Of a DNA stretch of 64,000 nt, positions 31,549 to 53,484 are shown in pieces. This DNA is from Kibdelosporangium persicum (GTDB taxonomy: Bacteria; Actinomycetota; Actinomycetes; Mycobacteriales; Pseudonocardiaceae): the NCBI RefSeq assembly GCF_013280595.1, contig NZ_JAAATY010000008.1, positions 1 to 64,000 on the forward strand, read 5' to 3'. The notes beneath the pieces were generated by a model. It was not told the DNA's origin. It saw only the letters and a list, made by a program, of their open reading frames with translations, and did no database searches. The stretch's first letter is position 1. Every line of letters starts with the position of its first letter. The position numbers and the translations under genes were made by a program.

Positions 31549-33124
31549 CGCCCGCTCCCAGCCGCCGCAGGTCGAGCTGCCCGATCGCCTTCACACGGAC
31601 CCGGACCGCGCCGCCGGGCACGTACGCGAGCGGCACTTCCTCCACGTCGACGACGCGGATGCTGTCGGGCAAGGCCCCCGCCGACTCCGCGCGCTCGATC
31701 GCCTCCAGCTTGACGTCCTCCAACACCTTGTCCCGCTTGCCTTCGCCGACGCGCACGACCCGGTCGACCTCGCCGCCGACTTCCGCGATCGCCGCACCGA
31801 CCGCGTTGGCCACCGCGAAGTTCTCCGGCCGGACGATGTCACCGACGCCGTCCAGTCCTGGCAGGACATCCGGCACGAGCACACTGCCGCCGCCGACCAC
31901 GAGGACTGGCAAGGGATCTGGCGACGTCCGCATCCGGTCGACGGCCTCGGCGATGCGTTCGCCGACGGTCTCGAGCACCGCCGCGGCCTGGCTCTTGTCC
32001 AGGTGCCCGACCAGCGCGGGATCACCGAGGTCGACCATTCCGGCCGCGACCGCCAGGTCGGTCAGCGTCAAGTCGTTGCCGCCGAAGACAAGCGCACGCT
32101 CGGTGAGTTCGTAGCCGACACTGTCGGGCCCGAAGTCGTCTCCCCGCACCAGGCTTCCGCCGCCGATACCGAGCGACAACAGGTCCGGCATCCGGAAGTT
32201 GGTCCGTACCCCGGCGAGCTCGGTGACCGCGCCCGCTTCCCGGGGGAACCCCGCGGCGACGACGCCGACGTCGGCGGTGGTCCCGCCCACGTCGACCACC
32301 GCGCAGTCACTGAGCCCGGCCAGGAAAGCCGCGCCCCGCATGGAGTTCGTCGGCCCCGAGGCGAAGGTCGCGACCGGGAACCGGCGGGCGTACTCGACGT
32401 CCATCACGGTGCCGTCGTTCTGGCTCAGCAGCAGCGGCGCCGTGATCCCCGCGCCGCGCAGCGCCGAGGTGAGCGCGTCCGAGATCTGCCCGGCGAGCTC
32501 GATCAGGGCCGCGTTGAGGACGGTGGCGTTCTCCCGTTCCAGCAGCCCGACCCGGCCGAAGTCGTGCGAGCACGAGATCCGCAGGTCCGGGACCTCGGCA
32601 CGGAGGATCTCCGCGGCCCGCAGCTCCATCTCGCTGTTCACCGGCGCGAACACCGACGAGATCGCGACCGACCGCAGGCCGCGTTCGGCCACGTCGGCGG
32701 CGACGCGCTTGATCTCGTCAGGGTCCAATGTGGCCAGTTCGGTGCCGTCGTACTCGTAACCACCGTGGACGAGGTAGTGCTTCTTGCCGATCGCGGCACG
32801 CAGCACCGGCGGCCAGCCCGTCAACGGCGGCAACGCCCCGGTCGCGGGCAGCGCGAGCCGGACCACCGCGGTCGGGGTGAGGCCGCGCTGCTGCACGATC
32901 GCGTTGGTGAAGTGCGTCGTGCCGATCATCACGGCGGACAGGTCGCTGATCCGTTCGATCGCACCGGAGGCCGCGGCCGCGGCGAGCAGATCGGTGACCG
33001 CCCAGGCAACTCCGTCGGTGACGTCCGGCGTCGTCGGCGTTTTGACCGACGCGAGCAGCCGGTTGTCCCCGGAAAGAAGGACAGCGTCGGTGTTCGTACC
33101 GCCTACGTCGATGCCGATTCGCAC
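31541..33124 (-). CDS. Hydantoinase/oxoprolinase family protein (HyuA-like), copy A
   Basis: The 527-aa protein has intact ASKHA-type phosphate motifs: N-terminal MRIGIDVGGTNTDAVLL and internal AVVDVGGTTADVGVVAAG (about residues 277-295), plus HyuA motifs GTTHFTNAIVQQRGL and RENATVLNAALIELAG. It is expected to hydrolyse cyclic amide or hydantoin rings with ATP. GTG 33124 starts it, and it overlaps the permease gene by 22 nt and DUF917 copy A by 8 nt. Compared with copy B (34446-35861), all nucleotide-binding residues are kept here, so this is the likely catalytic paralogue. Confidence 0.92.
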   Translation of the reverse strand: MRIGIDVGGTNTDAVLLSGDNRLLASVKTPTTPDVTDGVAWAVTDLLAAAAASGAIERISDLSAVMIGTTHFTNAIVQQRGLTPTAVVRLALPATGALPPLTGWPPVLRAAIGKKHYLVHGGYEYDGTELATLDPDEIKRVAADVAERGLRSVAISSVFAPVNSEMELRAAEILRAEVPDLRISCSHDFGRVGLLERENATVLNAALIELAGQISDALTSALRGAGITAPLLLSQNDGTVMDVEYARRFPVATFASGPTNSMRGAAFLAGLSDCAVVDVGGTTADVGVVAAGFPREAGAVTELAGVRTNFRMPDLLSLGIGGGSLVRGDDFGPDSVGYELTERALVFGGNDLTLTDLAVAAGMVDLGDPALVGHLDKSQAAAVLETVGERIAEAVDRMRTSPDPLPVLVVGGGSVLVPDVLPGLDGVGDIVRPENFAVANAVGAAIAEVGGEVDRVVRVGEGKRDKVLEDVKLEAIERAESAGALPDSIRVVDVEEVPLAYVPGGAVRVRVKAIGQLDLRRLGAGDA

Positions 33125-34449
33125 GCCTCCTCCTTCCCCTTCGGGTCGTCCGCCACAGGCACCTCGCTGATCGCCCGGACCAGGCCGAGTTTTCCGGCTG
33201 TCAGATACAGCAGTCCGGCCAGGAGTAACGAGTTCAGCGAGCCGATTCCGAGTGCCTCACGTTCACTCCACCAGCCGAACCACGCGGACACCGCCCAGAT
33301 CACCAGCGTCACCGGGATCAATGTCGGCTCGGTGGCGGGCAGCACACCGCGCTGCCGCGATTCGTCGAGCTCGCCACGCCACCGTTTGACGATGTAGTAC
33401 TCGGCGACCACGATCCCGGCGATCGGCGGCAGTGTGACACCGAGGATCATCAGGAAGTCGACGAACCGGTCGAGGATGCCGGCCGCCGACAGCGTGGTCC
33501 CGGCGATGCCGATGATCAGCGTGGCCCACACGCGGTTGACCTTGACGCCGGTCAGCGTGTCGATCGCGTTCACGATCCCCAGCGACGAACTGTAGAGGTT
33601 CCAGTCGTTGATCTTCACGACCGCCGCGACGAGGGTGATCACGCCGATCACGCCGACCGTGCTGGTCAGGATCGCGACGGCGTCCTGGCCCTTGACCGCG
33701 TAGGCCAGCAGGACGCCGATCAGGCCCATCACGTACTGGCCCAGCGTGATGGACAGGACGCTCTGCTTGACGACGTCCCGCGCGTTGCGGTTGAACCTGT
33801 TCATGTCGGGCATGATCGTCGCACCGGCCATGTAGGAGCCGGCCACCAGCGTCGCTCCCGCGGCGATCGTCATCGGCTCGCCCAACGGGCCCGCGGAGAA
33901 CAGCGCGCCGACGTCCACCTTCGCGAATTCGGTGATCACCGAGTACGCGATGACGATCTGGAACGCGGGCACCGCGGCGACCGCGACCCACCGCATCGCA
34001 CGGAATCCGTACATCACGAAGACCGTGATCACCACGCCGGTGATCAACGACCACACCCAGGGGTCGAGCACTGGCGCGATGGCGTTCATGCCCAGCGCGA
34101 ACACGCCGTTCTGGATGCCGAACCAGCCGATCAGGCTGATCGAGATGATCAGGCCGAGCAGCGCCGAGCCGTACCGGCCGAAGCCGGTCCAGCGGGTGAG
34201 TACCGAAGTGGACAGTCCTTCCCGGCACCCGGCGATCCCGACGAACACGGCGACCAGTTCCAGCACGACCGAACCGAGCGTCAACGCCCAGAAGGCGCCC
34301 CAGAAGGACAGCCCGGCGCCGAGGATGACACCGGTGGAGAAGGTGATCAGGTCCGAGATCTGGCCGAACTGCTGGACCGCGACCCACCCCCAGCCGTACC
34401 TGGCTTTCGCGGGAACCCGGCTGAGGGAGTAGTCGTCCTGGGGCGTCAC
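33103..34449 (-). CDS. NCS1-family nucleobase/hydantoin permease (CodB-like)
   Basis: The 448-aa protein has about twelve hydrophobic segments and the NCS1 N-terminal region GWGWVAVQQFGQISDLITF, with the substrate-site area SLIGWFGIQNGVF (residues ~104-116) and the conserved NDWNLYSSSLGI. Such carriers import cytosine, purines, allantoin or hydantoins with Na+ or H+. It sits between the two HyuA genes, with a GTGA overlap to the preceding gene. Together with PucR it points to a purine- or hydantoin-like substrate. The short C-terminal tail is charged (DDPKGKEEACES). Confidence 0.93.
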   Translation of the reverse strand: MTPQDDYSLSRVPAKARYGWGWVAVQQFGQISDLITFSTGVILGAGLSFWGAFWALTLGSVVLELVAVFVGIAGCREGLSTSVLTRWTGFGRYGSALLGLIISISLIGWFGIQNGVFALGMNAIAPVLDPWVWSLITGVVITVFVMYGFRAMRWVAVAAVPAFQIVIAYSVITEFAKVDVGALFSAGPLGEPMTIAAGATLVAGSYMAGATIMPDMNRFNRNARDVVKQSVLSITLGQYVMGLIGVLLAYAVKGQDAVAILTSTVGVIGVITLVAAVVKINDWNLYSSSLGIVNAIDTLTGVKVNRVWATLIIGIAGTTLSAAGILDRFVDFLMILGVTLPPIAGIVVAEYYIVKRWRGELDESRQRGVLPATEPTLIPVTLVIWAVSAWFGWWSEREALGIGSLNSLLLAGLLYLTAGKLGLVRAISEVPVADDPKGKEEACESAST

Positions 34450-37063: not shown

Positions 37064-38569
37064 GTGAGCCACGTTCCGCTCCGCGACCTGCTCGCTGGTC
37101 CAGACCTGAACATGCTGACGGTGCTGACCGCGTCACCAGGGCGGATGGTGGGCTCGGTCCGGGTCGTCGACAAGCTGACCGACCTACGGTCAGTGCCCCG
37201 CGACAGCTTCGTCGTGGTGTTGCCAACTGCGTCGGCACAGGCCCGGGGGCACCTGTTCGACATCGCGATGCGTGACGCGGCCGCCTCCGACGTGGGCGCG
37301 ATCGTGCTGAACGGGATCGACGCGACCACGGTCGAGTCCACGGCGGTGCGGATCGCCAACCGGAACGCCGTTTCACTGCTGCTGGCGCCGGTGAGCCTCG
37401 AACCGACCCGGCTGATCGTCGCCGTGGCCGAGGCTTTGGCGGGCGACGCGACAGCCGCGCTCGCCCGGATCGACGCGGCCCGGCGGCTGATCGCGTCGGC
37501 CGAGATGCGTACCCACGACCGCAAGGCCGCCGTGCTGTTGGCGGCGTCGGACGCCTTGGGCGTTCCGGTCACGGCCCGTCAACCGGCACACGGCGAACCC
37601 GCGGCGCCGGTCCTCGTCGATGGTGCCGTGGACACGTTCGTCGCCGCCGAGGTCTCGCCGGACGCTCGCGGCTCTTGGGTGGTCGCTGCTCGTGCCGTGA
37701 CGGCGTTGACGGCCGACGCCTACGCACGGGTGATCGGGGACGAGCGGCGTACCGAGCTCGCGCCGCTGGCCGACCGTGGACGCCTGCTCGGAGAACTGTT
37801 GCTGGCGCCCGACTCCGAACGCGTGCAACTGGTCTCCCACGCCCGATCGGTCGGGCTTCCGGTCGACGGCTGGCACCAGGTGTTGCGGTTCGAACTGTCG
37901 TCCTCTTTGGACTCCGGCGCGACGGTCAGCGCCGACCAGGTCGACGCCATCAGCGTGGCGATGCTGCACGCGGTCCGGGCGGAAATAGACGCCAAGTGGC
38001 ACAGCACCCGCATCGGCGGCGAACCCCTGCTGGTGCACAGCGTCGACGCCGACCCCGGCCCGTCCGCCGCCCGCACGGCGCTGGCGGCGGCGAACACCGC
38101 ACTGGCCGCCGCCCGCAAGCGTTTCCCCGGCATAGTCGTCCGGTGCGGTATCGGAGCCGTGCACCGGCAGGCGGAAGGGCTGCGAACCTCGGCGACGGAC
38201 GCGAAAGCGGCACTGGCCGTGACCCGCCAGGCCAAACCACAGCGGGACGTGGTGGCGATCGACGCGCTGGGCCTCAACCGGATGCTGGTCGAGTGGTACG
38301 CGTCGGACAACACCCGGGCTTCCGTCGACGACCTGCTCGCCCCGCTCGTGGACCTCGGGCCGGCGGCCGCGGAAGAGGCGATCCGGACCTTACAGGCCTA
38401 TTTGGACCACCAGAACTCCCCGGCCCGGGCGGCGGAAGTGCTGCGGGTGCACCGCCAGACCGTCCACTACCGGCTGAACAAGATCACCCGCCAGCTCGGG
38501 GTCGACCTGGCCGACCCCGAGCAGCGGCTGGCGCTCCAGCTGGCATGCCGCGCCTGGCTGATGCGCTAG
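37064..38569 (+). CDS. PucR-family transcriptional regulator
   Basis: The 501-aa protein has an N-terminal PucR domain (VPLRDLLAGPDLNMLTVLTAS), a middle GGDEF-like sensor-type region (about 280-400; ACGIGAVHRQ-like RCGIGAVHRQAEGLRTS), and a C-terminal helix-turn-helix at about residues 450-485 (ARAAEVLRVHRQTVHYRLNK). PucR regulators govern purine and allantoin breakdown in Bacillus and related uses elsewhere. It is divergent from the six-gene operon, the expected target. Start GTG 37064 has GGAGG 4 nt upstream. Confidence 0.92.
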   Translation: MSHVPLRDLLAGPDLNMLTVLTASPGRMVGSVRVVDKLTDLRSVPRDSFVVVLPTASAQARGHLFDIAMRDAAASDVGAIVLNGIDATTVESTAVRIANRNAVSLLLAPVSLEPTRLIVAVAEALAGDATAALARIDAARRLIASAEMRTHDRKAAVLLAASDALGVPVTARQPAHGEPAAPVLVDGAVDTFVAAEVSPDARGSWVVAARAVTALTADAYARVIGDERRTELAPLADRGRLLGELLLAPDSERVQLVSHARSVGLPVDGWHQVLRFELSSSLDSGATVSADQVDAISVAMLHAVRAEIDAKWHSTRIGGEPLLVHSVDADPGPSAARTALAAANTALAAARKRFPGIVVRCGIGAVHRQAEGLRTSATDAKAALAVTRQAKPQRDVVAIDALGLNRMLVEWYASDNTRASVDDLLAPLVDLGPAAAEEAIRTLQAYLDHQNSPARAAEVLRVHRQTVHYRLNKITRQLGVDLADPEQRLALQLACRAWLMR

Positions 38570-38647: not shown

Positions 38648-41600
38648 TCAGTTCCCTTTCACCCGCCCGACGATCCCGCCGGCATGCCGCTCACCGCGAC
38701 GACACCCGAACTCCCGGAACATCTCCAGCGCCTGCCCGGCAGCCGCAAGCGCCTCACCGGAATCGCCTTGATCCGCCTTGACCTCGGCCAACGCCGCCAA
38801 CGCCTTCGCCTCCAACAACCGCATCCCGTGCTCGCGGGCGAGCGCGACCGCCTTCTCAGCGAACCCGGCCGTGCCACTGGCCAACGTCATTCCGGCCAGT
38901 GCTTCGACTTCGACCGGATAGGCAACCAGGCCTCTCACCAGATCAAGGGCCTGCCTGAAGTGGCTCAGCGCCAGTTCACGTTGCCCTTCAGCCAGGCAGA
39001 TGGTGCCAAGCACAACGGCCGCTTCGGCTTCGTGCTTGCGATAGCCCCGGCTGCGGGCCCCTTCCAGCGCCGTGATCGCGTACGTCCGCGCGAGTTCCGT
39101 CTCCCCTCGATCGCAATGCACCCGGGCGATCATGATGTTCGCCGGATCGTGCGCGTAGTACCGAGCCAAAGTGGACTCCAGCACGAAGCGGGACACGGCG
39201 AGCGCCTGATCGGCGTCACCGAGTTCTCGGTGGACCTGGCTGAGGTATCCACACGTCACGATCTCACCCGTCGGGACCTCGAGGCGGATGGCCAGCTCTC
39301 TTGCTTCCACGAGAGTCTCCAAGGCATCTCGTAGCCGGCCCACACCGTAGTAAGCCACACCGAGGTTCGACAGCACCGCCAGCTTGCGTTGTTCGCCTTG
39401 CTCCACCCCCCGATCGACGAGTTCGCGTCCCTCCTCGGCAGCTTCAACGGCTTTCTGTGGCCACCCTGCCTCGTGATAGGCAACGGCCGTGGTGAGCACC
39501 GCACTGGCGTATATCCCGGTCTCGCCGATCACGGCGGCGATCCTCCGACACTCGGCGAAGTCGTCGACCGACTCGTCGAAATGGCCGGCCACGGCCTTCG
39601 ACGAACCGAGCACGAGGAACATGATCGCTTGTCCTCGTTGGTCACCAACCTGACGAGCAGCGGCCAGTCCAAGGCCGGCCATGCGGTTCAGATCATCTGT
39701 GCGGTAACTGTGGTAAAGGTCGGGTCGGGCCGCATCCGTCAACTGCCAGGCGTACCTGAGGGGTCCGTAGGCCGCGGTGTGTTCGATGAGGGCCATGTAG
39801 TTGTGCCGCTCCGCGTCGAGCCACCGCATTGCCTCATCCGTGGTCTCGAACACGAGCGGCACAACATCCGCGGGCGCGGGGCCCAGCCGCGAGACGTAGA
39901 CCGACGCGATCGGAGCGACCGCCGCATATACGGAGTACAGGTACCAGTCCGCCAACCGGCGCAGCGCTTCGGCACTGTCATAGTCGTTCGCCCGCGCCGC
40001 TGCGTACACCCGGATCAGGTCGTGGAACCGGAATCGATCCTCGGCCTGGCGCTCCAGGAGGTTCGCCGCCACCAACCGCTCGAGGATGTCGCCAGCCTCA
40101 TCGATGTCGCATTCGAGCAGTGCGGCGGCGCCTGCCACACTGATGTCCATTCCAGGCACCACGCCAAGCAGACCGAACGCTCGCTGGTCCACTTCGCTCA
40201 GTGTGGCGAACGAACCGTCGAACACAGCGCGGATGCCGATGCCGCTGGTCTTGAGTTTCGCTAACCGGTCACCGCTGCGCAGATCTTCGGCGTACCGGGC
40301 GATGCGCAGGCCAGGCCGGCTGGCAAGGTTCGACGCGGCGATGCGCAGTGCCAGCGGCATTCGTCCACACAGGTCGGTCAGCACGGTCGACGCTCCGATG
40401 TCTTCGGCGCACCGGGCCCTTCCCGCGATCCGGGCGAGGAGGTCGTAGGCGTGACGACCGGAGAACGGCTGGAGCGAGATGCGGTTGCCGCCGTAAAGAA
40501 CGGACAACCCACCGAGTTCTGACCGGCTGGTCACCAGCACGGCACTTCCCGGCCGCCCCGGCAGCAAGGGCGCCACCTGCTCGACTCCAGCCGCATCGTC
40601 CAGGACAATCAGCACTCTGCGCTCCGCGAGACGCGATCTCAGCAGACTTGCCCGGGCGTCGACGTCGGCCGGTATCGAGGTCGGATCCACGCCCGCGGTC
40701 CGCAGCAGTTCAGCCAGCAGGTCATTCGCCGGGCGCGGCGCCGGGCTCGCCCCTTTGAGCCGGAGAAACCACTGCCCGTCCGGATACTGCTCGATCAGCC
40801 GATGCGCGGCACGCACCACCAGGGCGGACTTGCCCATGCCAGGCGGACCGCTGATGGTCATGATCGGCACCGTGGTTCCCGGACGCATGGACTCCAGCAC
40901 GTGGGCGAGTTCGTCGTCGCGGTTGGTGAAATCGCCGATGTCGATGGGCAGCTGACATTCCACACGCCAGCCACTGTCCTCCTCGCCTGCCAGCACAATC
41001 TCGTGCGCCTTCCGCAGATGAGCGCCCGGTTCGACACCCAACTCGTCGACAAGCCGTTGCCGCACAGCGGAATACGCCCGCAACGCTTCCGCCTGCCTCC
41101 CAGCACGGAACAGCGCAAGCATCAACAACGCCCAGAACCGTTCCCGCAGAGGATACTCAGCTGTCAGTTCTGTCAGCTCCGGCAGTGCGACCTGGTGCTG
41201 ACCAGCATTCAGATCCAGTTCGAGTTTCCGCTCAAGCGCCTGCAAGCGTCGCTCGGCCAGCGGCTCAGCCATCCTCCGCAAGTAGTCGGACGGCACATCC
41301 GCGAACGGCTCACCACGCCACAGTTCAAGCGCCTGCCGGAGGACTTCCGTTTCCCCCTCACCCGCCGTCCGCGCCGCGGCTATGCCCCCTTCGAACCGTT
41401 TGACGTCAACCTGGCCCTCGTCGACCACAATGCGGTAACCATCGCCGCCCGCCTCGATGTCAATGTCTTTGAGGACACTACGCAGCCGCGTCACCAACGT
41501 GTAGACAGCAGGACGCGGATTCGCCGGAACCGACTCACCCCAAACGGCCTCCACCAATTCGTCGAACCTGACAACCTTGTTGGCACGAACCAGCAACGCG

Positions 41601-41692
41601 GCGAGCAAACAGCGCAATCGCGCCGAGCCAATTGGAATCACCCGGCCGCCCGCGACGACTTCGATCGGCCCCAGAACCCGAAACTCCACCCT
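38648..41692 (-). CDS. AfsR/SARP-type regulator: DNA-binding + BTAD + NB-ARC + TPR
   Basis: About 1014 aa from GTG 41692 (GGGGA upstream; GTG 41716 is an alternative). Domains: OmpR-type winged helix (VEFRVLGPIEVVAGG..., about 1-90), BTAD (about 95-240; RERFWALLMLALFRAGRQAEAL, LVDELGVEPGAHLRKAH), NB-ARC with Walker A GPPGMGKSALV near residue 285, VLIVLDDAAG Walker B and GRMPLALRIAA, and TPR repeats to the end. It is a typical cluster-situated activator. Its position after a LAL regulator and LanM suggests control of the lanthipeptide-like locus. The 3' end converges with pucR. Confidence 0.92.
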   Translation of the reverse strand, partial: RVEFRVLGPIEVVAGGRVIPIGSARLRCLLAALLVRANKVVRFDELVEAVWGESVPANPRPAVYTLVTRLRSVLKDIDIEAGGDGYRIVVDEGQVDVKRFEGGIAAARTAGEGETEVLRQALELWRGEPFADVPSDYLRRMAEPLAERRLQALERKLELDLNAGQHQVALPELTELTAEYPLRERFWALLMLALFRAGRQAEALRAYSAVRQRLVDELGVEPGAHLRKAHEIVLAGEEDSGWRVECQLPIDIGDFTNRDDELAHVLESMRPGTTVPIMTISGPPGMGKSALVVRAAHRLIEQYPDGQWFLRLKGASPAPRPANDLLAELLRTAGVDPTSIPADVDARASLLRSRLAERRVLIVLDDAAGVEQVAPLLPGRPGSAVLVTSRSELGGLSVLYGGNRISLQPFSGRHAYDLLARIAGRARCAEDIGASTVLTDLCGRMPLALRIAASNLASRPGLRIARYAEDLRSGDRLAKLKTSGIGIRAVFDGSFATLSEVDQRAFGLLGVVPGMDISVAGAAALLECDIDEAGDILERLVAANLLERQAEDRFRFHDLIRVYAAARANDYDSAEALRRLADWYLYSVYAAVAPIASVYVSRLGPAPADVVPLVFETTDEAMRWLDAERHNYMALIEHTAAYGPLRYAWQLTDAARPDLYHSYRTDDLNRMAGLGLAAARQVGDQRGQAIMFLVLGSSKAVAGHFDESVDDFAECRRIAAVIGETGIYASAVLTTAVAYHEAGWPQKAVEAAEEGRELVDRGVEQGEQRKLAVLSNLGVAYYGVGRLRDALETLVEARELAIRLEVPTGEIVTCGYLSQVHRELGDADQALAVSRFVLESTLARYYAHDPANIMIARVHCDRGETELARTYAITALEGARSRGYRKHEAEAAVVLGTICLAEGQRELALSHFRQALDLVRGLVAYPVEVEALAGMTLASGTAGFAEKAVALAREHGMRLLEAKALAALAEVKADQGDSGEALAAAGQALEMFREFGCRRGERHAGGIVGRVKGN

Positions 41693-41907
41693 GTTCCCCG
41701 GAAGGTCCGACAACACAACCAGCCGGACACACTACCGCGCGTCACCCCCAGTCACGCCAGAGCCGAGACTGGGGGTCGCTCTGGCGTGCCTGAGGCGTGT
41801 TCCCGGGATCGCAGTGCCAATGGATGCCCCTCCACGGCACTCCACCCCTTCCCAGGGACGCGTACACACCGTAGCGAGAACACCTTTCACCAAGCTTTCA
41901 CCAGAGG

Positions 41908-44835
41908 CTACTGGGCTTCGCCGTATGCGGACGCGGCGAAATCGCTGAGTTCCACCCGGTCGGCGACATCAGCCTTCATGATCAGGCTGGCCACGTGCTT
42001 TTCCACCGTGCGAGGCGAAATATGCAGGCGGTTCGCGATCGCCTTGTTCGTGAGCCGTTCCACCAGCAACTGCAGCACCTCGTGCTCCCGGACCGTCACT
42101 CCGATCGCACGTAGATCATCCGGCACCTGATCGATGCCCGTCCGACGCTGCTTGACCGAGGCGCCCGCGTGCCGCAGGAGCGAGCGGCATGCACCAGCGA
42201 CTGCCGGGACTGACAGTTGGTGGAAGTACTCCTCGGCACGACGAAGCCAAGCGATGGGCTCCCCCCACCCGTCAGCTATCGCCGCTTCAGCCGCGAGCCG
42301 GAGGACGATATGGCGGACCATTCCATAGATCTCAGAGTCTTGTTGCGCTGCTGCCGCCGCCGCGTTCGCCTCTTCGATCCGGCCCTCGCGTCCGAGCAGA
42401 ACGGCTTCAGCGAGTCGTACGAACTGGCGGTTCCACCGCATTGCGGCCTGAGCATCCGAGAGAACCGCCTGGTACTCACTCCATCCGGCTTCTTGCTCAA
42501 GTACGGCGAGGAAAAGGCACAAACCATGTCGGCCGGCAAGGTGGTAGTTGGACGGCAACCCCTCAGTAGCCGCCAACATCTTCGCCAGTTCGTCCCTGGC
42601 CAGACCTCGGTTCTCCTCGAGCAGGGCACAGAAGGCTCGCGCAAGTCCAAGCACCAACGGGAATTCGTGCGAGTGTTCGTCCTGCCACTCGGAGAACTCC
42701 GCGATCGCCTGATCCATCTCGGACCGCTTGCCCTGGTGCGCCGCAAGAATCGTCTGCACCATCAGCAGGTAACGAAGTTGGGGACGGAGGCGTAGCCGGA
42801 TCACGTCTTGCTTGTATTGCGCGATCAAATGCGAGGTCTTGGCAAAATCGCCTCTCAGCGCCGCATCCATGGCGATGTTGCCTTGGACCGTGTATCCCAA
42901 GGTCACGGCACCGACCCTCTGGGCCTCGTCCAGCGTGCGCTGATAGCCCGACGGGTCGCCGTCGGACAACCACGAATTGACGGCCAGGAGCACCAAGGCA
43001 TAGACCCGCCAGATCGGCAGCCGGTGGCCTTCGGCGATTTTCAAGCCACGCTGGAAACAATCAACCGACTCCGCCATGCTGCGGTCCCGCGCCAGTTCAC
43101 CGAGGATGAGCCAGGCTTCGCACAGCACATGAGGCGAATTCCCGCGCTCGGCTGAAGCTATGGCGCGCCGGGCCAACGCTTCCGCTTCCGCCGCGCGGTT
43201 ATCTCCTCGGCCGTGCCGTGTGAGACTGGCGGCGATCACATCTATGGCCGCGGTGTGCTCTTCCGGTGCGTCGCTACCGAGTACCTCTCTGGCCGCGATG
43301 ACTTGTTCCATTCCTTCAGCGAAGAGTCCGGCCAAGTAGTAGACGTTCGCCAGCCGCGTGTGCAGCGCCGCGCGAGTTCCCGGACTGAGACTGGCCCCGT
43401 TCAACTGCTCGTCCAACGTGTCGACCAGCATCCGTGCCCGATCGACCTGGCCGGCTTCCGCCAGTGCGTAGAGCAGCGTTTCCAAGATCCTGGCCTTGCT
43501 CTCCGCCGTCGACTCTCCCTGCAGGAGTGTGTTGGCCCGATCGAGCAGTTTGACCGAGGACTCGGACGCTCCATCCGCCAACGCCCTTCGGCCTGCCTCC
43601 GCGAAGAGAGTCGCGGCGCCCTGGATGTCACCCGAGTCCGCCTGCAACGTAGCTACCAGCTGACACCACTCCCCCGGCAAGTCCGGATGGAGAGCCTTGA
43701 CAGCGGCTGATGCTTGGCGGGAGTACTCCGCGCGGTCGGCGGGCGGCAAGCTTGACCTCAACGCCTCGGCCATGAGTGGGTGACGGAACGCGTACCAATC
43801 TGGAGACTCGTCGTCTGGTGCCACTATCTGGGCTGCGACAGCCGCACGTAGGTGGGACAGCATGCTGCGCTGGTCGAGCGCAGTCACCTGGCCGACCACC
43901 GACAGCGGGAATCTATCGCCGAGCACCGCTGCCACTGACAGCAGCATGCTGCCCTGCGGTCCCAACTGTCCGACCCTGTCGATGACTCCGCGCAGAACCG
44001 TCTCGGGGACGTCGGGACGCAGTGTGCCGATCACCCGCCAGCCAGCGGCGCCCTTGACCAACACACCGTCGCTGACGAGCTGGTGCAGGACCTCTTCGAT
44101 GATGAACGGGACGCCCGCGCTGTCCTCGGTGAGCCTGTCGACCACTTCATCCGGCAAGTCCTCGGGTTTGGCCTCCAGACACGCAGCAGCCAGCCTGGAG
44201 ACGTCTGCCGCAGTGAGGCGGCTGAGCGTCATCATCGATGCGGCATGGCGCTGAGTGGCCAAGCGAGCGAGGTCTCGGGCCGCGCAGGGCTCATCGCGGA
44301 TCGTCGCCACAAGCAGCACCGGGAGATCCGCGAGATTGTCGGTGAGGTACTCGACGATCGCGAGGGTCTCGGCGTCAGCGTGCTGCAGGTCCTCGAGGAT
44401 CAGCATGCAGCCGTGCGAGCGGCCAGCGAGGGTCACCAGCCGGAGGACGGCCTCGCCGAGAACTATCAACGAGTCGCCTACGTCGACGCCGCCCGGCTGT
44501 TGCAGGTCAGGAATGAGTCTGCCGAGAATTGGCCGATATGGTCCGAGCGCGACGTCATCTGGCAGATGGCCGCCTCGGAACAAGGCAAGAAGCGCCTCGG
44601 TCAATGGCCGGAAGGGCACAATGGGTCCGATCGTGCTGCCTCGTCCCCTGAGGACCCGGACGCCCGCGGCGAAGGCGATGCCCGCTGCTTCGGAGGCGAG
44701 TCTGGACTTCCCGATCCCCGCTTCACCAACGAGGAAGACCGCGCCGCCGCGCGATGCGCGTGCGGCGTCGATCGCCCTCGTCAGTTCGGCCACCTCACGA
44801 TCGCGGCCGATCACGAGCGGGGAGTGGGACACCAT
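41908..44835 (-). CDS. LAL-type (LuxR, large ATP-binding) transcriptional regulator
   Basis: The 975-aa protein has an N-terminal AAA-like ATPase domain (Walker A FLVGEAGIGKSRLA at about 36, Walker B MLILEDLQHAD), a long helical TPR-like middle, and a C-terminal LuxR helix-turn-helix (VTVREHEVLQLLVERLTNKA, RLHISPRTVEKHV). Start ATG 44835. It lies 64 bp after the 63-aa peptide gene on the same strand and is followed by the AfsR-like regulator. Such proteins often activate natural product clusters, so it is a likely regulator of the adjacent LanM locus. Confidence 0.93.
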   Translation of the reverse strand: MVSHSPLVIGRDREVAELTRAIDAARASRGGAVFLVGEAGIGKSRLASEAAGIAFAAGVRVLRGRGSTIGPIVPFRPLTEALLALFRGGHLPDDVALGPYRPILGRLIPDLQQPGGVDVGDSLIVLGEAVLRLVTLAGRSHGCMLILEDLQHADAETLAIVEYLTDNLADLPVLLVATIRDEPCAARDLARLATQRHAASMMTLSRLTAADVSRLAAACLEAKPEDLPDEVVDRLTEDSAGVPFIIEEVLHQLVSDGVLVKGAAGWRVIGTLRPDVPETVLRGVIDRVGQLGPQGSMLLSVAAVLGDRFPLSVVGQVTALDQRSMLSHLRAAVAAQIVAPDDESPDWYAFRHPLMAEALRSSLPPADRAEYSRQASAAVKALHPDLPGEWCQLVATLQADSGDIQGAATLFAEAGRRALADGASESSVKLLDRANTLLQGESTAESKARILETLLYALAEAGQVDRARMLVDTLDEQLNGASLSPGTRAALHTRLANVYYLAGLFAEGMEQVIAAREVLGSDAPEEHTAAIDVIAASLTRHGRGDNRAAEAEALARRAIASAERGNSPHVLCEAWLILGELARDRSMAESVDCFQRGLKIAEGHRLPIWRVYALVLLAVNSWLSDGDPSGYQRTLDEAQRVGAVTLGYTVQGNIAMDAALRGDFAKTSHLIAQYKQDVIRLRLRPQLRYLLMVQTILAAHQGKRSEMDQAIAEFSEWQDEHSHEFPLVLGLARAFCALLEENRGLARDELAKMLAATEGLPSNYHLAGRHGLCLFLAVLEQEAGWSEYQAVLSDAQAAMRWNRQFVRLAEAVLLGREGRIEEANAAAAAAQQDSEIYGMVRHIVLRLAAEAAIADGWGEPIAWLRRAEEYFHQLSVPAVAGACRSLLRHAGASVKQRRTGIDQVPDDLRAIGVTVREHEVLQLLVERLTNKAIANRLHISPRTVEKHVASLIMKADVADRVELSDFAASAYGEAQ

Positions 44836-44899: not shown

Positions 44900-45091
44900 C
44901 TAGTTGATCCCCACTGAGTCGAACTGCTCAATGCGGGCCATGCCAGCCGTTGTGAGCAAGGTCGCCATCCTTTCGAACCTGTATCCGGCGAGGGCACTTG
45001 CTCGTGAAGCGACGGGGCGGGCTGCGCTGAGGGCGATCTCGCCAGCGGGGTGGGGGGTGGCGGAGGCGCCAGACATCGTCAGAGCAGTCAT
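44900..45091 (-). CDS. 63-aa peptide beside lanM, candidate RiPP precursor without cysteine
   Basis: The frame starts at ATG 45091 with AAAGGAAAAG ending 8 nt upstream, a strong site; it lies 76 bp downstream of the lanM stop. The 63-aa peptide begins MTALTMSGASATPHPAGE and ends ARIEQFDSVGIN. The C-terminal half has Ser29, Ser32, Thr44, Thr47, Thr48 and Ser59 but there is no Cys in the whole peptide, so a normal lanthionine cannot form. There is also no Lys, so lysinoalanine is excluded. No GG leader motif is visible. Position and size make it the candidate substrate; the alternative is an unrelated small protein. No other peptide gene was seen near lanM. Confidence 0.7.
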   Translation of the reverse strand: MTALTMSGASATPHPAGEIALSAARPVASRASALAGYRFERMATLLTTAGMARIEQFDSVGIN

Positions 45092-45167
45092 GACGACTTT
45101 TCCTTTTCTTTACCAGAGAGGGGCATCTCTAGGAGCGGTGAGGAGAGCTGCAGGAGCGGGGTGGGGG

Positions 45168-48068
45168 TTAGCGGAGTGCTCCTGGGGTGGGTTCGAGCAG
45201 GAGGACTGAGGGGACGCGGCTGGCGAAGCCGAGGCGGAGCAGGCCGTAGCCGATGCCGGCGAGGCCGTTGAGCAGGCCGGCGGACACCACGCCGTGAGGA
45301 GTGCCACAGCGGACGCCGCCACGGTCGATCGCGCCGAGCAGGAGGCCGGCGTGGCGGGTCGCGGCGGCCGCGGCCTCGTAGTTCCCGCGTTCGCCGAGGA
45401 CCATCAGGGCTTCGGTCACGCCGAGCTCTCCGTGGCAGAGGCTCATGTCGCGCAGCGGATGGTGTTCGGCCAGGGTTCGGGACCACTCGTCGGGTGCGTC
45501 GCGGCGGGCCATGGTGAAGCCGGACAGGCCGCCGCACCAGCTCAGGTCCGTGCCGTCGGGCACTTCCGCGTCCAGGATCGCCTGGCCGACCTCGAAGTAG
45601 TGGTCGCCGGCTCCCGTTGCCGCGAACCGCTGCAGGGCCCAGCCGATTCCGGTGTGGCCGTGGGCGAATCCCGCCGTCGGCACGTCCATGCAGGTGCACG
45701 GCACCGTGTGCGCCTGCTCCACCAGCCGGTCGGCGAAGTCCCAGGCCAGGCGTCCCGCGGAGGGCAGGCCGGTTTCGGTGTGCACGGCCAGCATCGCCGC
45801 CAGCCCGCCGGCGCTTCCGGCCGCGAAACAGGCCAGCTCGTCGTCGGTCGCCGCCCGGGTCAGGTCCACCACCGCGGGCAGCCAGCTGCGGATCTCCGGG
45901 TCGTCCAGCAGGTTGCCCAGCCGGGCGATCGCGTAGCTGATCCCGCCGAGGCCGTGCGGGCCGCCGCAGCCGATGGTCACGCCGAGCTCGGGCTCGGTGA
46001 TCAGCTGGTCGATGAGGCGGGGCACTGGGCGGACCGCGTCCCTGGCGAGTTCCGCGTAGCGCTGCACGCCGGTCAAGTCGGCGAGCTGCGCGAGGAACAG
46101 CGCCACTCCGCAATACCCGTGGGCGAGGCCGGCGCCCATCGGGAGAACCGCCCAGTGCTTGTCGATGATCGGCTCGAGGCCGAGCCAGTTCGCACGGCCG
46201 TCTCCGTGCATCGCGCGGGCGCCGATCTCGTCCGCGATCCCGCACGCCGCGGACAGCAGCCGCTGCGGGTCGGGGATCGCGGACGTCCCCGCCCGCGGCC
46301 GGGTCTCGCCGGTGCGGTGGTCCACGGGCAGCGCCCGCGTGGCCAGCGCCGCCGAGATCAGCCATTCCTGGTCGTAGCGGTCGACTTCGTCCATCGCCGC
46401 GATCTTCAGCACCACCGTCGCCAGGCCGGGGCCTTCCAGCAGGTCCGGGAGGCATTCACCGTCGGCCGCCCACAGGTCGCGGGAACCCGGCTTGCTGGTG
46501 AACATCGGCAGGTCGCCTGCCCAGAGGTCGCTCAGCTCGCTCGGGATCAGCCGCTGGCGGGCCAGGTCGCACGCCGAGTCGATGGTCAGCGCGTCGAACA
46601 CGCGCTCCCGCTGCACGGCGTCGCGCAGCACGTCCGGGTGCGTGGACTCGTCCAGCAAGGTCGCGTAGACCTGGCTCGGCCGGGCCACGATCCGGATCTC
46701 GTCGTTGGTGCACGCGGTCAGCAGACCGATCAGTTCCGACCGGTGCCGCACGATCGCGTCGTAGCCCTCACGGAATCCGCCGAGCATGGCGGCCCGGTAC
46801 TCGGCCGGTTCGACGTCGATGTCGCCGAGCCGCGGCCGGTTCGTCGCGCCCTGGAACTCGCCGCGCCGGCGGACCAGACGCATCATGTCGGTGCCGACGC
46901 CGTCCCACGCGACGGTCTCGTCGGGATACTGGACGCCCTTGTCGCCGCCCAGTCCGGAGACGTCGACCGCGCCGTGCTCGCCGAGGAGCATCTGCGGCAG
47001 CAACGCCATTCGGTGCACAGAGGACGCGAGCACGCGCGCCGCGGGGTCGGGCCCGGTCGCGGTCGGCTGCTCGAGCATCGGGTGGAACAAGGTCTCGACG
47101 TCCACGAGCACCGGCTGGTCCCCGCACGCGACCAGGTTCTCGTAGTGGATGTCCGCGCCGTCCACGGCGTACAGCAGCGCCAGCAACGCGCCTTGCCTGC
47201 GGTAGAACCGGTCGACCTCGGCGAGCTGGGAGCACGGCCGGTGCTCGATGAACTCCAGCCAGCCGTAGCCGTCCCGCGCCAGCGAGTCGACGGTACGCAA
47301 CCCCAGGCCGAGGACCTTGGAGTTGAGCCAGCTGACCAGTCCGCTGAAGTGCCGGTGCAGGTCGAGTGATCGCGGCTTGTAGACGACCTTGCGGCCGTTG
47401 GCGAAATGCAGGATCGCGACGGTACGGCCACGCTGGTGCGAGTCGCCGGTGCCGGTCTGGATCTCCACCAGGTCACCCGGGTCGACGCCGCCCAGCAGCC
47501 GCGCCACGATCAGGTCGCGGTCGGCGCGGAACCGCTCAAGCAGCTCCACCTGTGCGTCGGCGCCGTGCTGGCACGCCTGGCCGAGCAGCCGCGCGAGCAC
47601 CGGGTACTCGGCGAACAGCGCGGTCAGCCGCTCGGAGCTGGCCTGGGCACGGATGAAGTCGGCGAACCGCTGCTGCGCGGTCGGGCCGGTGAGCCTGCCG
47701 GACACCCGCTCGACGTTGAGTTCGAGCACGAGGGTGCGGGCGGCCAGGCCGGCGAGGCGCCTGCCGAGCTGCCGGTCGAACGCGGCGGCCACGGCCTGGG
47801 CGTCGATCTTGCCTACCGAGGCGGCTTCGGTGACCCGCTCACGGGCGATGCGAACCAGCGGGCGGAACACCCAGGCGAAGGCGTCTGGCCAGTCGGACGG
47901 CACAGCCCCCTCGGCGCTGACCGGGCCGGTGGCCACTGCCTGGTCGATCAGCTCCGCCCAGCGCGGGCGGCCCTGGACCGTCCACCGGCGTTCGGCGGCG
48001 GTCAGCGCGCCGGTCCACCATGGTCCGGAGTTGATCCCGTTGTCGCGGTGCGAAATCGCTTGGCTCAC
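45168..48068 (-). CDS. lanM: Class II lanthipeptide synthetase (LanM)
   Basis: About 966 aa from GTG 48068 (VSQAISHRDNG; no strong ribosome site, so the start is uncertain). The N-terminal dehydratase domain keeps the kinase-like active site residues: K in RKVVYKPRS, D-x-H-x-x-N in GADIHYENL, LVDVETLFHP and RPSQVYATLL. The C-terminal LanC domain keeps zinc ligands in LSWCGGLSG and SLCHGELG and the HG-rich helices (AHGHTGIGWAL). It should phosphorylate and eliminate Ser/Thr and then cyclise Cys onto the products. It is on the minus strand upstream of the 63-aa peptide gene and the two giant regulators. No transporter or protease is adjacent. Confidence 0.93.
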   Translation of the reverse strand: MSQAISHRDNGINSGPWWTGALTAAERRWTVQGRPRWAELIDQAVATGPVSAEGAVPSDWPDAFAWVFRPLVRIARERVTEAASVGKIDAQAVAAAFDRQLGRRLAGLAARTLVLELNVERVSGRLTGPTAQQRFADFIRAQASSERLTALFAEYPVLARLLGQACQHGADAQVELLERFRADRDLIVARLLGGVDPGDLVEIQTGTGDSHQRGRTVAILHFANGRKVVYKPRSLDLHRHFSGLVSWLNSKVLGLGLRTVDSLARDGYGWLEFIEHRPCSQLAEVDRFYRRQGALLALLYAVDGADIHYENLVACGDQPVLVDVETLFHPMLEQPTATGPDPAARVLASSVHRMALLPQMLLGEHGAVDVSGLGGDKGVQYPDETVAWDGVGTDMMRLVRRRGEFQGATNRPRLGDIDVEPAEYRAAMLGGFREGYDAIVRHRSELIGLLTACTNDEIRIVARPSQVYATLLDESTHPDVLRDAVQRERVFDALTIDSACDLARQRLIPSELSDLWAGDLPMFTSKPGSRDLWAADGECLPDLLEGPGLATVVLKIAAMDEVDRYDQEWLISAALATRALPVDHRTGETRPRAGTSAIPDPQRLLSAACGIADEIGARAMHGDGRANWLGLEPIIDKHWAVLPMGAGLAHGYCGVALFLAQLADLTGVQRYAELARDAVRPVPRLIDQLITEPELGVTIGCGGPHGLGGISYAIARLGNLLDDPEIRSWLPAVVDLTRAATDDELACFAAGSAGGLAAMLAVHTETGLPSAGRLAWDFADRLVEQAHTVPCTCMDVPTAGFAHGHTGIGWALQRFAATGAGDHYFEVGQAILDAEVPDGTDLSWCGGLSGFTMARRDAPDEWSRTLAEHHPLRDMSLCHGELGVTEALMVLGERGNYEAAAAATRHAGLLLGAIDRGGVRCGTPHGVVSAGLLNGLAGIGYGLLRLGFASRVPSVLLLEPTPGALR

Positions 48069-48272
48069 GAGTAAACAGGCTGGCAGCGGGCTTGCGCGCG
48101 GACATGGGTATCGGTTCCCCACATTCGCGCCAGGCACCACCCGTATTAGGTAGTGGGGGTTCCCGGCCGCCTGAAGTACTCGACGGTACCGGGGCCGGCG
48201 ACGGCTGAGCGACCGCTGTCACCCATCCGGAACCTGACAGCAGGTGTCAGGCATGAGTGCCAGGATGAGCGG

Positions 48273-50566: not shown

Positions 50567-51604
50567 TCAGCCGATCACGGAGTCCGCGATCTTCGCGCGC
50601 AGCGCGCGGCCGCTCGCGCCGAACGCCTCCAGCCACTGGGCTCGCTTGTACAGCCGGTGCAGGATGTGTTCCCAGGTCATGCCCACACCGCCGTGTACCT
50701 GGATGGAACGCTCGCACGCCGTGACGGCCGCCTCGGTGGCCGCGGTCTTGGCCGCGGCGACGGCCACATCGGCCTGCTCGTCGCCTTCGGCCAGTGCCCA
50801 CGCCGCCCAGTAGGTCAACGACCTGGCCAGTTCGAGGTCCGCGTACGCGTCCACGAGCTGGTGTGAGACCGCCTGGTAGGTGCCGATCACCCGGCCGAAC
50901 TGCTCACGGGTGGACGCGTGCGCGATGCCGTCCTCCAGCGCGCGCCGCCCGACGCCGAGTGCCTCCGCCGCGGCGAGCACAAAGGCGCGGTTCTCGATTT
51001 CGCCGAGTACGGAACCGTCGCCCAAAGCCTGCGAAGGCGCCGCGTCGAACTCCACTTCGGACAGCCGACGAGAACGGTCCGAAGTGGACAATGGCGTCAC
51101 GGTGGCGTCGGCCGTCCGGACGAGCCGGAGTTCCGGTCCGGCCACGGTGACCACGAGCGCGTCGGCGAACGTGGCGTCGGGCACGAGGACCTTGCGGCCG
51201 GTGACGCGACCGTCCGCGTCCACAGTCGTGGCCAGGCCGGTGTCCGCGATGCCCTGCGGACGGCCGGATTCCGCCCACGCCAACGACAGCTTGAGCTCAC
51301 CGGACGCGACCGAAGCCACGAGATCCTTGTCGTGCCGGATCGCCGGCAGGGCGAGGGCTATGGTGCTGAACAGCGGCGCGGGCAGCAACGCGGCGCCCGT
51401 CTCCTCGAACAGCACGACCTGGTCCAGCAGGGTCAGCTCGTCGTCGGTCCAGCCGAGGTCGGCCAGCTGCTTCCAGCTGTCCGGCCGCCAGCCCGGCTCG
51501 CCGTCGATGATCGCGGGCAGGCCGGTCAACGGGTGCTGTTCGGCCAGGAACTCCCGGGCGGCCGTGCGCAGCATGTCCTGTTCGGACGAGAAAGCGAAGT
51601 CCAT
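50567..51604 (-). CDS. Acyl-CoA dehydrogenase family protein, short subunit (FadE)
   Basis: The 345-aa protein has the ACAD fold: DFAFSSEQDMLRTAAREFL at the N-terminus, VLFEETGAALLPAPLFS, LVAAAEALGVGRRALEDGIAHASTREQFGRVIGTYQAVSH, and IQVHGGVGMTWEHILH near the C-terminus (the ACAD C-terminal FAD/CoA motif). It is shorter than the usual ~385-400 aa and is paired with the 390-aa subunit, 22 nt upstream. That pattern is the one known for two-subunit alpha2beta2 acyl-CoA dehydrogenases of actinobacterial steroid and branched-substrate degradation. Confidence 0.9.
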   Translation of the reverse strand: MDFAFSSEQDMLRTAAREFLAEQHPLTGLPAIIDGEPGWRPDSWKQLADLGWTDDELTLLDQVVLFEETGAALLPAPLFSTIALALPAIRHDKDLVASVASGELKLSLAWAESGRPQGIADTGLATTVDADGRVTGRKVLVPDATFADALVVTVAGPELRLVRTADATVTPLSTSDRSRRLSEVEFDAAPSQALGDGSVLGEIENRAFVLAAAEALGVGRRALEDGIAHASTREQFGRVIGTYQAVSHQLVDAYADLELARSLTYWAAWALAEGDEQADVAVAAAKTAATEAAVTACERSIQVHGGVGMTWEHILHRLYKRAQWLEAFGASGRALRAKIADSVIG

Positions 51605-51626: not shown

Positions 51627-52799
51627 TCAACGACTGCGGGGAAGGCCGAGCACACGCTCGGCGACGATGTTGCGCAGGATCTCGGAGGTTCCCGCTTCGA
51701 TGGTGTTGCCCCGGCTGCGCAGCTGGCGGTACTGCCAGTAGCCGTCCCACACGCCGCCCTCGTCGTCGAGCATCGTCGACAGGCCCTGCAGGCCACGGGC
51801 GAGCTTGGTCAGCCGCTGGTTCGCCTCGCTCCACACGAGTTTCACGACAGAGCTCTCCGGCCCGGGCTGCCCCTTGGTCAGCAACGTCGTCAGAGTGCGG
51901 TAGTTGGTGAACGCCAACGACTGCAGCTCGATCCACTCGCGGGCGATCGCGTCGCGCACCACGGGATCGTCCGCGGGCACGCTGCCGTCCGGCGCGGGCT
52001 GCCTGGACAGCTCGACCAGACGCGTGAAGTGCTGGCGCAACTGGCCGACCAGGGCGAACGCCAGCGTGCCGCGTTCGTGCAGCAGCGTGGTCATCGCGAC
52101 TTTCCAGCCGTCGCCCGGCTTGCCGAGGATCGAGTCCTTCGGCACGCGCACGTCGGTGAAGAAGATCTCGTTGAACTCCGGGTCACCGGTGATCTGGCGC
52201 AACGGCCGGACTTCCACACCCGGCGCGTGCATGTCCACCAGCAGGTACGACAGGCCCTCGTGCTTCTTGGCGGCGGGGTCCGTGCGCACGACGAGGATGC
52301 ACCAGTCGGCGATGTGCGCCCAGGACGACCACACCTTCTGGCCGTTGACCACCCAGTGGTCGCCGTCCAGCACCGCGGTCGTGCGTGCGCCCGCGAGGTC
52401 GGACCCGCTGCCGGGCTCGGAGAAGCCCTGGCACCAGATCTCCTCGCCGGACAACAGCTTGGGCAGGTACCGCTGCTTCTGCTCCGGCGTGCCCCACGCC
52501 ATGATCGTCGGCCCGGCCATGTTCAGCCCGATGATGCCGATGTGCTCCGGCGCCTGGGCGCGGACCATCTCCTCGAAGTAGATGGCCTGGTAGCTGGGCG
52601 AAAGCCCGGCGCCGCCGTATTCTTCGGGCCACGTCAGCCCGACGTAGCCCGCGTCGAAGAGCTTGTGGCTCCACGACCGCATGAAGTCGACGTCCGGACG
52701 GCCCGCACCAGGGATCGCCGAGGGGTCGAAGTTCTGCCGGTACCAGTCGCGTAGCTTCGCACGGAACGCCGCCTCGGCGGCGGTGTCACGGAAGTCCAT
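51627..52799 (-). CDS. Acyl-CoA dehydrogenase, large subunit (FadE)
   Basis: The 390-aa protein starts at ATG 52799. It has the FAD/substrate motifs IWCQGFSEPGSGSDLAGART and VVNGQKVWSSWAHIADW, and the C-terminal GNTIEAGTSEILRNIVAERVL region. In single-subunit enzymes the catalytic Glu sits just before G-T; here the residue there is Ala, with a Glu one position earlier, as in other paired FadE proteins. It is followed by its partner (50567-51604). Two-subunit enzymes of this type act on steroid side chains or other large acyl-CoAs. Confidence 0.92.
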   Translation of the reverse strand: MDFRDTAAEAAFRAKLRDWYRQNFDPSAIPGAGRPDVDFMRSWSHKLFDAGYVGLTWPEEYGGAGLSPSYQAIYFEEMVRAQAPEHIGIIGLNMAGPTIMAWGTPEQKQRYLPKLLSGEEIWCQGFSEPGSGSDLAGARTTAVLDGDHWVVNGQKVWSSWAHIADWCILVVRTDPAAKKHEGLSYLLVDMHAPGVEVRPLRQITGDPEFNEIFFTDVRVPKDSILGKPGDGWKVAMTTLLHERGTLAFALVGQLRQHFTRLVELSRQPAPDGSVPADDPVVRDAIAREWIELQSLAFTNYRTLTTLLTKGQPGPESSVVKLVWSEANQRLTKLARGLQGLSTMLDDEGGVWDGYWQYRQLRSRGNTIEAGTSEILRNIVAERVLGLPRSR

Positions 52800-52800
52800 T

Positions 52801-52851
52801 GAGACATGTTTGCACTTTGACTCAAAACCGGTCAACCGTTTGATGTGTCTC
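52801..52851. promoter_or_regulatory. Dyad-symmetric operator between FadE operon and TetR gene
   Basis: Two nested inverted repeats share one centre (52826): GAGACA (52801-52806) with TGTCTC (52846-52851), and TTGAC (52817-52821) with GTCAA (52831-52835). It fills most of the 82-bp gap between divergent starts, the expected place for autoregulation by the TetR-type repressor. The spacing is unusually long for TetR, so it may hold two overlapping sites. Confidence 0.65.
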
Positions 52852-52881
52852 GATCGTGCGACGCCGGGTATCGTTGCCGGC

Positions 52882-53484
52882 ATGCCGGCCACACCGCTCA
52901 CCCGCGCACTGCGCGGACCGTCACCGGCGCCCAGGACGGCGCCCATCGACGCGTTCCGCCTGGCCAAGAAGTGGTTCCTGGCGGGGCGGCGGGTCGACAT
53001 GCAGCAGCTGGCGGCCGAGCTCGGCGTCAGCCGCGCGACCCTCTACCGCTGGTGCGGCAGCCGTGAACTGCTGCTCGGCGAGGTGATCTGGGCGATCAAC
53101 GAACGCGCCCTGCAGGACTGCCGCGGCAAGTCCCGCGGGTCCGGCCGGGTGCTGATCACCCGCGTGCTGGAACGTTCCCTGGCCCGGATTCGCGGTTTCG
53201 AGGCACTGCAGCAGTTCGTGGCCGAGGACGCGGAGTACGCGCTGCGGATCATCACGTCCAAGCAGAGTGTCGTGCAGGCCAGGCTGATCGAGTGGACCGC
53301 GGACTTCCTGCGCGAGCAGGTCGAGTTGCGCGACGACATCGACCTCGCCGACCTGGCCTACGTGATCGTGCGCGTGTGCGAGTCGTTCGTGTGGAGCGAC
53401 ATGATCACCGGCGCGCCGCCGGAGACGGACAAAGCGGTGAAGATCGTGGACCTGCTCATCGCGGCGGCCGAGGTTCAGCGGTAG
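52882..53484 (+). CDS. QsdR-family TetR-type transcriptional regulator
   Basis: The 200-aa protein begins MPATPLTRALRG. The N-terminal domain has IDAFRLAKKWFLAGRRVDMQ and the helix-turn-helix LAAELGVSRATLYRWCGSREL, the signature order of the QsdR group (F-R-L-A, then L-A-x-x-x-G-V-S-R-A-T-L-Y-R-W). The C-terminal domain is helical (LERSLARIRGFEALQQFVAEDAEY). It is divergent from the two-subunit acyl-CoA dehydrogenase operon and probably represses it until an acyl-CoA-like ligand binds. QsdR members elsewhere control lactone or lipid use. It overlaps the next gene by 10 bp at the 3' end. Confidence 0.9.
   Translation: MPATPLTRALRGPSPAPRTAPIDAFRLAKKWFLAGRRVDMQQLAAELGVSRATLYRWCGSRELLLGEVIWAINERALQDCRGKSRGSGRVLITRVLERSLARIRGFEALQQFVAEDAEYALRIITSKQSVVQARLIEWTADFLREQVELRDDIDLADLAYVIVRVCESFVWSDMITGAPPETDKAVKIVDLLIAAAEVQR

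Follow-up and report, generated by a model that had tools for sequence, protein, structure and literature searches.

We analysed a 64,000-nucleotide (nt) stretch of DNA from Kibdelosporangium persicum (contig NZ_JAAATY010000008.1, positions 1 to 64,000; hereafter the window), and in it a gene for a class II lanthipeptide synthetase (LanM), together with the genes that follow it for a small precursor-like peptide and a LAL (STAND-type LuxR) regulator. By comparing the locus within its genus and its bacterial family, we found that the three genes constitute one module, and that in Kibdelosporangium the peptide and the regulator diverge jointly, whereas LanM does not. The genes, and a promoter element upstream of them, are as follows.

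45168..48068, minus strand: LanM (class II lanthipeptide synthetase), with a DUF4135 dehydratase and a LanC-like domain (LANC_like).
44900..45091, minus strand: precursor peptide of 63 aa, with a leader (...HPAGEIAL...RASALAGYR) and a Cys-free core, FERMATLLTTAGMARIEQFDSVGIN; the border between the two is putative.
41908..44835, minus strand: LAL regulator of 975 aa (predicted start), with an AAA_16 ATPase, a helical solenoid (about 365-890) and a LuxR helix-turn-helix (HTH; about 905-975); proposed receptor.
48138..48156, minus strand: conserved promoter element, CCACTACCTAATACGGGTG, upstream of lanM and the sole match in the window genome at up to one mismatch; putative LAL site.

The synthetase scored 734 bits against TIGR03897 (cut-off 304), as a class II lanthipeptide synthetase should. 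Its stop codon lies 76 nt from the ATG of the peptide, which the initial annotation had rightly described as a 63-aa precursor-like product with a ribosome site (AAGGA, ending 9 nt upstream of the ATG) and neither Cys nor Lys (0 of each). The six Ser/Thr that it had counted in the C-terminal half need a small correction, as five are found in the last 32 residues and the sixth is a Ser three residues earlier. Lanthionine and lysinoalanine rings cannot form within such a peptide, as had been argued, and its core carries no Cys from which a thioether ring could be made. The peptide had no family match in Pfam or NCBIfam at E<=1.

Within the genus (eight Kibdelosporangium genomes, 28 pairs; the window genome is G000) an ORF (open reading frame) occupies the same place beside LanM in all eight genomes, with a related leader ending AL(A/G)G(Y/H)R and a variable C-terminus. 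The core after this motif is Cys-free in seven of the eight peptides (that of G002 has one Cys there; the single Cys of the G004 peptide is in the leader), so that the window clade shows neither a conserved Cys-containing peptide at orthologous loci nor a peptide left unconserved. The conservation of the Ser/Thr themselves had been suggested as a check; within the genus, strict conservation of their positions is not seen. A genome-wide search with a profile of 44 precursors (E<=0.05) returned 13 matches in the eight genomes, all of which adjoin a LanM (11 of them had contributed to the profile itself), and no scattered copy away from LanM. The eight orthologues and the profile matches led us to reject a chance ORF and support the peptide as the partner of LanM. 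The annotation's suggestion that the true substrate lies elsewhere is judged unlikely, as the genus holds no further match at this threshold, and its other option, a dehydrated peptide probably devoid of rings, fits the observed conservation.

A LanM-peptide-LAL module

The wider comparison used 148 LanM loci, of which 140 come from the same bacterial family and eight (L082-L089) were named from outside it (six Streptomyces, one Kitasatospora and one 'Actinobacteria bacterium OV450'). The family search scored two candidates per genome and gave 143 matches; 139 were taken and, with one from the genus search, make up the 140 (left out: G191:C600, G229:C448, G251:C43, G012:C520). All loci were picked by their likeness to the window LanM, and the proportions below describe such relatives and not LanMs at large. 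At the threshold used, the family occurs in 132 of 390 genomes of the same bacterial family, and at E<=1e-150 in four of 394 genomes (the window genome included) in an even sample of the class. The other seven Kibdelosporangium LanMs are 89-97% identical to that of the window. LanMs of the same kind are also found in records titled Rhodococcus rhodnii NRRL B-16535 (96%), a title that looks mislabelled, and Actinosynnema sp. ALI-1.44 (93%).

A relative of the precursor follows lanM at 144 of the 148 loci (misses: L131, L216, L229, L230), as scored by a profile that was iterated on the same loci. A same-strand LAL gene is found within 2.5 kb after lanM at 144 of 148 as well (median gap 328 nt), the misses being two contig ends (L229, L230), one LAL 3.2 kb away (L148) and one locus with none in 5.5 kb (L226). 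Within the stretches examined, LAL was absent at all four distant LanM loci (~30% identical) and at three further LanC-type loci from Kibdelosporangium. Conversely, 13 of the 15 genus LALs detected at E<=1e-60 adjoin a LanM. The next most common gene cluster after LAL reaches only 19 of the first 68 loci, and LanM, peptide and LAL are one module. A possible signal gene beside a regulator gene is the arrangement of peptide pheromone systems, with LAL as the putative receptor. The two remaining LALs (L245, G004:C1:4831744; L246, G006:C30:528) are 62-63% identical to the LAL of a second module of the window genome, on contig C38, and had no LanM match in the surrounding stretch examined.

Counting Cys over the last 30 residues of the precursor, here and in the residue counts below, 114 of 144 loci are without it, as are 131 of 162 individual peptides, and each of the 162 carries three or more Ser/Thr in this part. 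Many cores end TTVSAPG, DISTVVS or SPSVVS where other modules carry TTCC; those of Kibdelosporangium are more divergent. Several precursor copies are present at 11 of 144 loci, and at L118, L122, L125, L166 and L168 two or three precursor genes with differing cores stand in tandem before one LAL. The C38 module of the window genome (G000:C38:50877-56911, L120) is paralogous, with a LanM 53% identical to that studied here and a Cys-containing precursor (...TTPICSVSHH). Because such related Cys-containing modules exist, one of them in the same genome, the lack of Cys is a property of the clade.

The predicted structure of LAL (pLDDT 87.5, pTM 0.66) has an ATPase part and a long helical solenoid, and carries the HTH at its C-terminus. 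Its top Foldseek match was 6mfv, a STAND protein with TPR repeats (E 1.2e-12); 8bob, of the maltose system, ranked fourth and 8rst, a pheromone-bound Rap, 36th among the 50 matches listed.

Constraint on dehydratase and cyclase residues

Residues were mapped by alignment to CylM, with dehydratase and cyclase roles as given in passages of PMC4550811 and PMC9934072, respectively, and counted in the 143 loci with a LanM longer than 850 aa. The initial annotation had called the active sites complete, which holds for the dehydratase (D209, H211, K231, D306, H308, N311, D323 and R459, with Ser465 at the position of CylM T512), the zinc ligands (C845, C878, H879) and the acid His (H803). It is slightly too strong for the cyclase as a whole, whose enolate-stabilising position beside the zinc Cys is Gly846; in the passages of PMC9934072 that deal with it, this residue is His, Tyr, Lys or Asn.

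Among the relatives, H211, D306, H308, N311, D323 and R459 are invariant (143/143) and D209 is D in 142, the position of K231 reads K in 110, R in 31 and Q in two, and that of T512 reads T in 130, S in 12 (the window LanM among them) and P in one. On the cyclase side, the zinc triad is intact in 135 LanMs, the acid His is retained in 31 and absent in 112, and H, K, N or Y occupies the enolate position in three. The dehydratase is thus strictly constrained, and the residues that usually serve thioether formation are not. Both zinc Cys are substituted in six Streptomyces-type modules (L083-L088), one of which reads His-His-His, and all six have Cys-free precursors. Loss of the acid His, considered as a mark of Cys-free modules, was rejected, being equally frequent in modules with Cys. 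Five of the six zinc-Cys-replaced modules (L084, L085, L086, L087 and L088) have a common gene past LAL, which Pfam identifies as a P450 in L086, where a major facilitator superfamily (MFS) gene also lies past LAL.

Joint divergence of peptide and LAL in Kibdelosporangium

The genes flanking the module are syntenic across the genus, and between them the peptide and LAL genes form an island of divergence (medians over the 28 pairs throughout). Identity and synonymous divergence (dS) are 32% and 1.43 for the peptide and 74% and 1.46 for LAL, set against 92% and 0.45 for LanM. The four upstream genes have medians of 81-91% (dS 0.42-0.61); past LAL, a PucR-like gene stands at 93% (dS 0.86) and the four genes beyond it at 84-87% (dS 0.54-0.65). 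In the closest pair (G001-G005) the LanMs are 99% identical (dS 0.13), the peptides 35% and the LALs 79% (dS 1.70). A breakpoint artefact, by which everything past lanM would be foreign, was rejected, as synteny continues past LAL and the genes there have median identities of 84-93%.

In the LAL tree, G000, G003 and G004 separate from the remaining genomes (support 100). By the approximately unbiased (AU) test the LAL data reject both the tree of flanks plus LanM (4.7e-7) and that of LanM (9.7e-7), and the flank data in turn reject the LAL tree. The peptides of G000, G003 and G004 end in SVGIN, SVGAN and AAGAN, but that of G001, from the other group, ends in GATN. Given LanM distance, peptide distance follows LAL distance within the genus (r 0.61, p 0.003) and shows no correlation with that of three flanking genes (p 0.63-0.78). 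Relative to the family-wide pattern, the excess divergence of LAL in the genus falls at residues 481-800 (a concentration attained in 3 of 975 circular shifts), and the HTH is least variable. Across groups of related loci, with three g8 loci (L223-L225) and those with a short LAL or LanM omitted, the partial correlation of the peptide with the TPR part of LAL given LanM is positive in seven of seven, with p<0.05 in three (g1, g25 and the SPSVVS group of g11).

A generally fast evolution of LAL is unsupported by the controls. The LAL/LanM dS ratio has medians of 0.91-1.30 across nine other groups (pairs with LanM dS >=0.7 omitted), and in the paralogous Cys-containing module, present in three Kibdelosporangium genomes, LAL dS is 0.49-0.55 and LanM dS 0.45-0.58 (the LanC neighbour of the C38 module, G000:C38:60901, was left out). 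One pair outside the control range, L143-L220 (g42, second module; LanM 83%, LAL 37%), may represent a second receptor replacement, or else wrong LAL gene limits. Co-diversification of the peptide with its putative receptor is present in these data, and strong in one genus only.

Promoter element and neighbouring genes

The promoter element (CCACTACCYAATNCGGGNG) has a single match per genome at up to one mismatch in seven of the eight Kibdelosporangium genomes, always upstream of lanM; that of G003 has a one-base insertion. We considered an element common to other genera and rejected it, as none was found upstream of their lanM. Other genes of the window that bear on the module are the following.

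38648..41716, minus strand: AfsR/SARP-like regulator, an optional divergent insert after LAL (~57-65% identical), whose membership of the module is uncertain.
37064-38569: PucR-like gene (by Pfam), the next conserved gene after LAL.
33103-34449: cytosine/purine-type permease, ~11 kb away.

The SARP-like gene sits between LAL and the PucR-like gene, and is full length in G000, G001, G002 and G003, with a fragment called in G006. As the initial annotation had noted, no transporter or leader protease adjoins the module: Pfam detected no peptidase or ABC transporter in 16 neighbours and LAL (50567-51604 and 51627-53000 unscanned). The window holds one LanC-domain match only, and with it no LanKC partner.

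A candidate signal-receptor module and its alternatives

The module, the erosion of cyclase residues in its relatives, the divergence island, the conflict between trees and the correlation of peptide with LAL distances were all computed here. As the simplest account we propose a signal-receptor module in which the adjacent LAL recognises the LanM-dehydrated peptide as its specific ligand and controls the operon; of the explanations considered we find this the most likely, with odds about even. LanM would recognise the 63-aa peptide by its conserved leader and, judging by its intact dehydratase residues, dehydrate Ser/Thr in the C-terminal part; because the peptide lacks Cys, the product would be a dehydroalanine/dehydrobutyrine (Dha/Dhb) peptide with no thioether ring. 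The mature peptide, which may first leave the cell, would be bound by the TPR-like solenoid of the adjacent LAL and thereby switch this ATPase regulator, which would act on the lanM promoter via the conserved element and close a feedback loop, in the direction that we infer. In Kibdelosporangium, peptide and LAL sensor would diversify jointly into specificity groups (pherotypes), LanM, the DNA-binding domain of LAL and the promoter element staying near constant. In its boldest form the proposal describes a new class of actinomycete pheromone, with a LanM that is mainly a dehydratase, a ring-free Dha/Dhb peptide, an allele-specific LAL receptor and a LanC-like domain in another role; this we put forward tentatively, as somewhat short of probable. 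The initial annotation had anticipated part of this picture, and had missed the adjacent LAL and the joint diversification.

Several observations weigh against the proposal. The strong pattern is confined to eight genomes of one genus, and peptide and LAL are adjacent, so that recombination could replace both at once and tie them together with no specificity involved. The excess divergence in the TPR part recurs, more mildly, in g25 and g8 (and not in g14 and g11). In g8, g23 and the SPSVVS group of g11 the peptide follows the ATPase part of LAL at least as closely as it does the TPR part, and the TPR link in the genus drops to p=0.06 after also correcting for the ATPase part. With TPR distance accounted for, a link between peptide and LanM persists in g8 and two g11 groups. 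Co-divergence of the TPR part alone is not established. The Foldseek matches of LAL include many unrelated TPR proteins. Among cyclase residues, the zinc triad is retained by most Cys-free modules, one zinc ligand is changed in two Cys-containing modules too (L130, L205), and 24 of 113 Cys-free modules retain the acid His, as do six of 29 with Cys; because its loss is equally frequent in both, the ring-free pheromone becomes slightly less probable. Lastly, no dedicated exporter, protease or importer was found beside the module, and the missing route for a signal to exit and re-enter the cell is a weak point.

The lack of a peptidase or ABC transporter among the scanned neighbours, together with a promoter element found only at lanM, agrees with a circuit internal to the cell, in which the LanM product binds LAL inside its producer, reports LanM activity or stress and never passes between cells. 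We find this distinctly unlikely, as an allele-like diversification of peptide and receptor would be difficult to account for unless they met other cells or antagonists. The same joint divergence, in which LanM takes no part, speaks against an ordinary cluster for a ribosomally synthesized and post-translationally modified peptide (RiPP), where the peptide would be the effector (an antibiotic or surface-active compound) and LAL a pathway activator answering another cue. LALs often control biosynthesis genes, one follows lanM at nearly every locus (144/148) and the precursors of several other genera are fairly conserved, all as expected of such a cluster; still, no other gene cluster is widely common to the module (19/68 loci for the next), and we consider this explanation unlikely.

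That foreign alleles enter the peptide-LAL segment by chance, as a recombination hot spot free of specificity, would account for a LAL dS near saturation, for the conflict of the LAL tree with the flanks, for the SARP gene as an optional insert beside LAL and for the raised dS of the next downstream gene (median 0.86). It would leave unaccounted for a boundary that falls between lanM and its own substrate gene, a change concentrated in the sensor and not in the HTH, and the lack of such a pattern in the paralogous module and nine other groups, and we hold it to be quite improbable. The persistence of the zinc triad in 135 of 143 LanMs, though 113 of the 143 have Cys-free precursors, could mean that the LanC domain couples a small external thiol (e.g., mycothiol) to the dehydrated residues, the product being a thiol-conjugated peptide, much as the eukaryotic LanCL adds glutathione in the account excerpted from PMC9934072. 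The loss of the acid His in 112 and of an H/K/N/Y enolate residue in 140 of 143 LanMs, and the replacement of both zinc Cys in six modules, make this very improbable.

Relation to known systems

Cys-free LanM precursors are already in print. Passages of PMC7268733 report LanM-associated precursors without Cys in LanM+LanKC clusters, not considered lanthipeptides and omitted from a large survey, and parts of PMC11251773 mention companions without Cys where a cluster has both types of cyclase. A LanM-LAL signalling module was not found in the literature searched by title and start of abstract, a coverage from which most subscription journals are missing. If the precursors are signals, the LanM family of 132 of 390 genomes gains a role, ligands would be named for a group of LAL regulators, which to our knowledge mostly lack known ones, and a peptide signalling system would be added in a phylum whose quorum sensing is called under-explored (in the excerpt of PMC4748050). 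The signalling reading is directly testable between strains.

With class II lanthipeptide clusters (CylM, LicM2) the module shares the LanM family, the domain order and an adjacent leader-core precursor; it differs from them in its Cys-free precursor, cyclase residues that are eroded in most relatives, a dedicated LAL gene, and no LanT or leader protease found among the scanned neighbours. The LanM+LanKC clusters, as described in the passages of PMC7268733, resemble it in their Cys-free LanM-associated precursors, whereas here there is one LanC-domain match in the window, with LAL instead; around the six Streptomyces-type modules, LanM and LAL are the only products above 700 aa to have been called (not all genes family-scanned). 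The prochlorosins and cyanotins of the same source likewise have diverse cores, some without Cys, but the precursors studied here stand beside each LanM, with none scattered in the genus, and have no Pfam match.

Among pheromone systems, those of the agr/ComX type encode a modified peptide beside its receptor gene, and combine a hypervariable peptide-plus-sensor segment with a conserved output domain. The module would resemble them in both respects, with a peptide (modified, as proposed here) adjoining a receptor-type gene; it differs in that the modifying enzyme is a LanM, which is not variable, and that a STAND-LuxR protein would take the place of a histidine kinase as receptor. RRNPP receptors (Rap, PlcR) and MalT share with LAL a TPR sensor, 8rst and 8bob being among the Foldseek matches to the LAL model; unlike theirs, the ligand here would be post-translationally dehydrated, and LAL combines an ATPase with a LuxR HTH.

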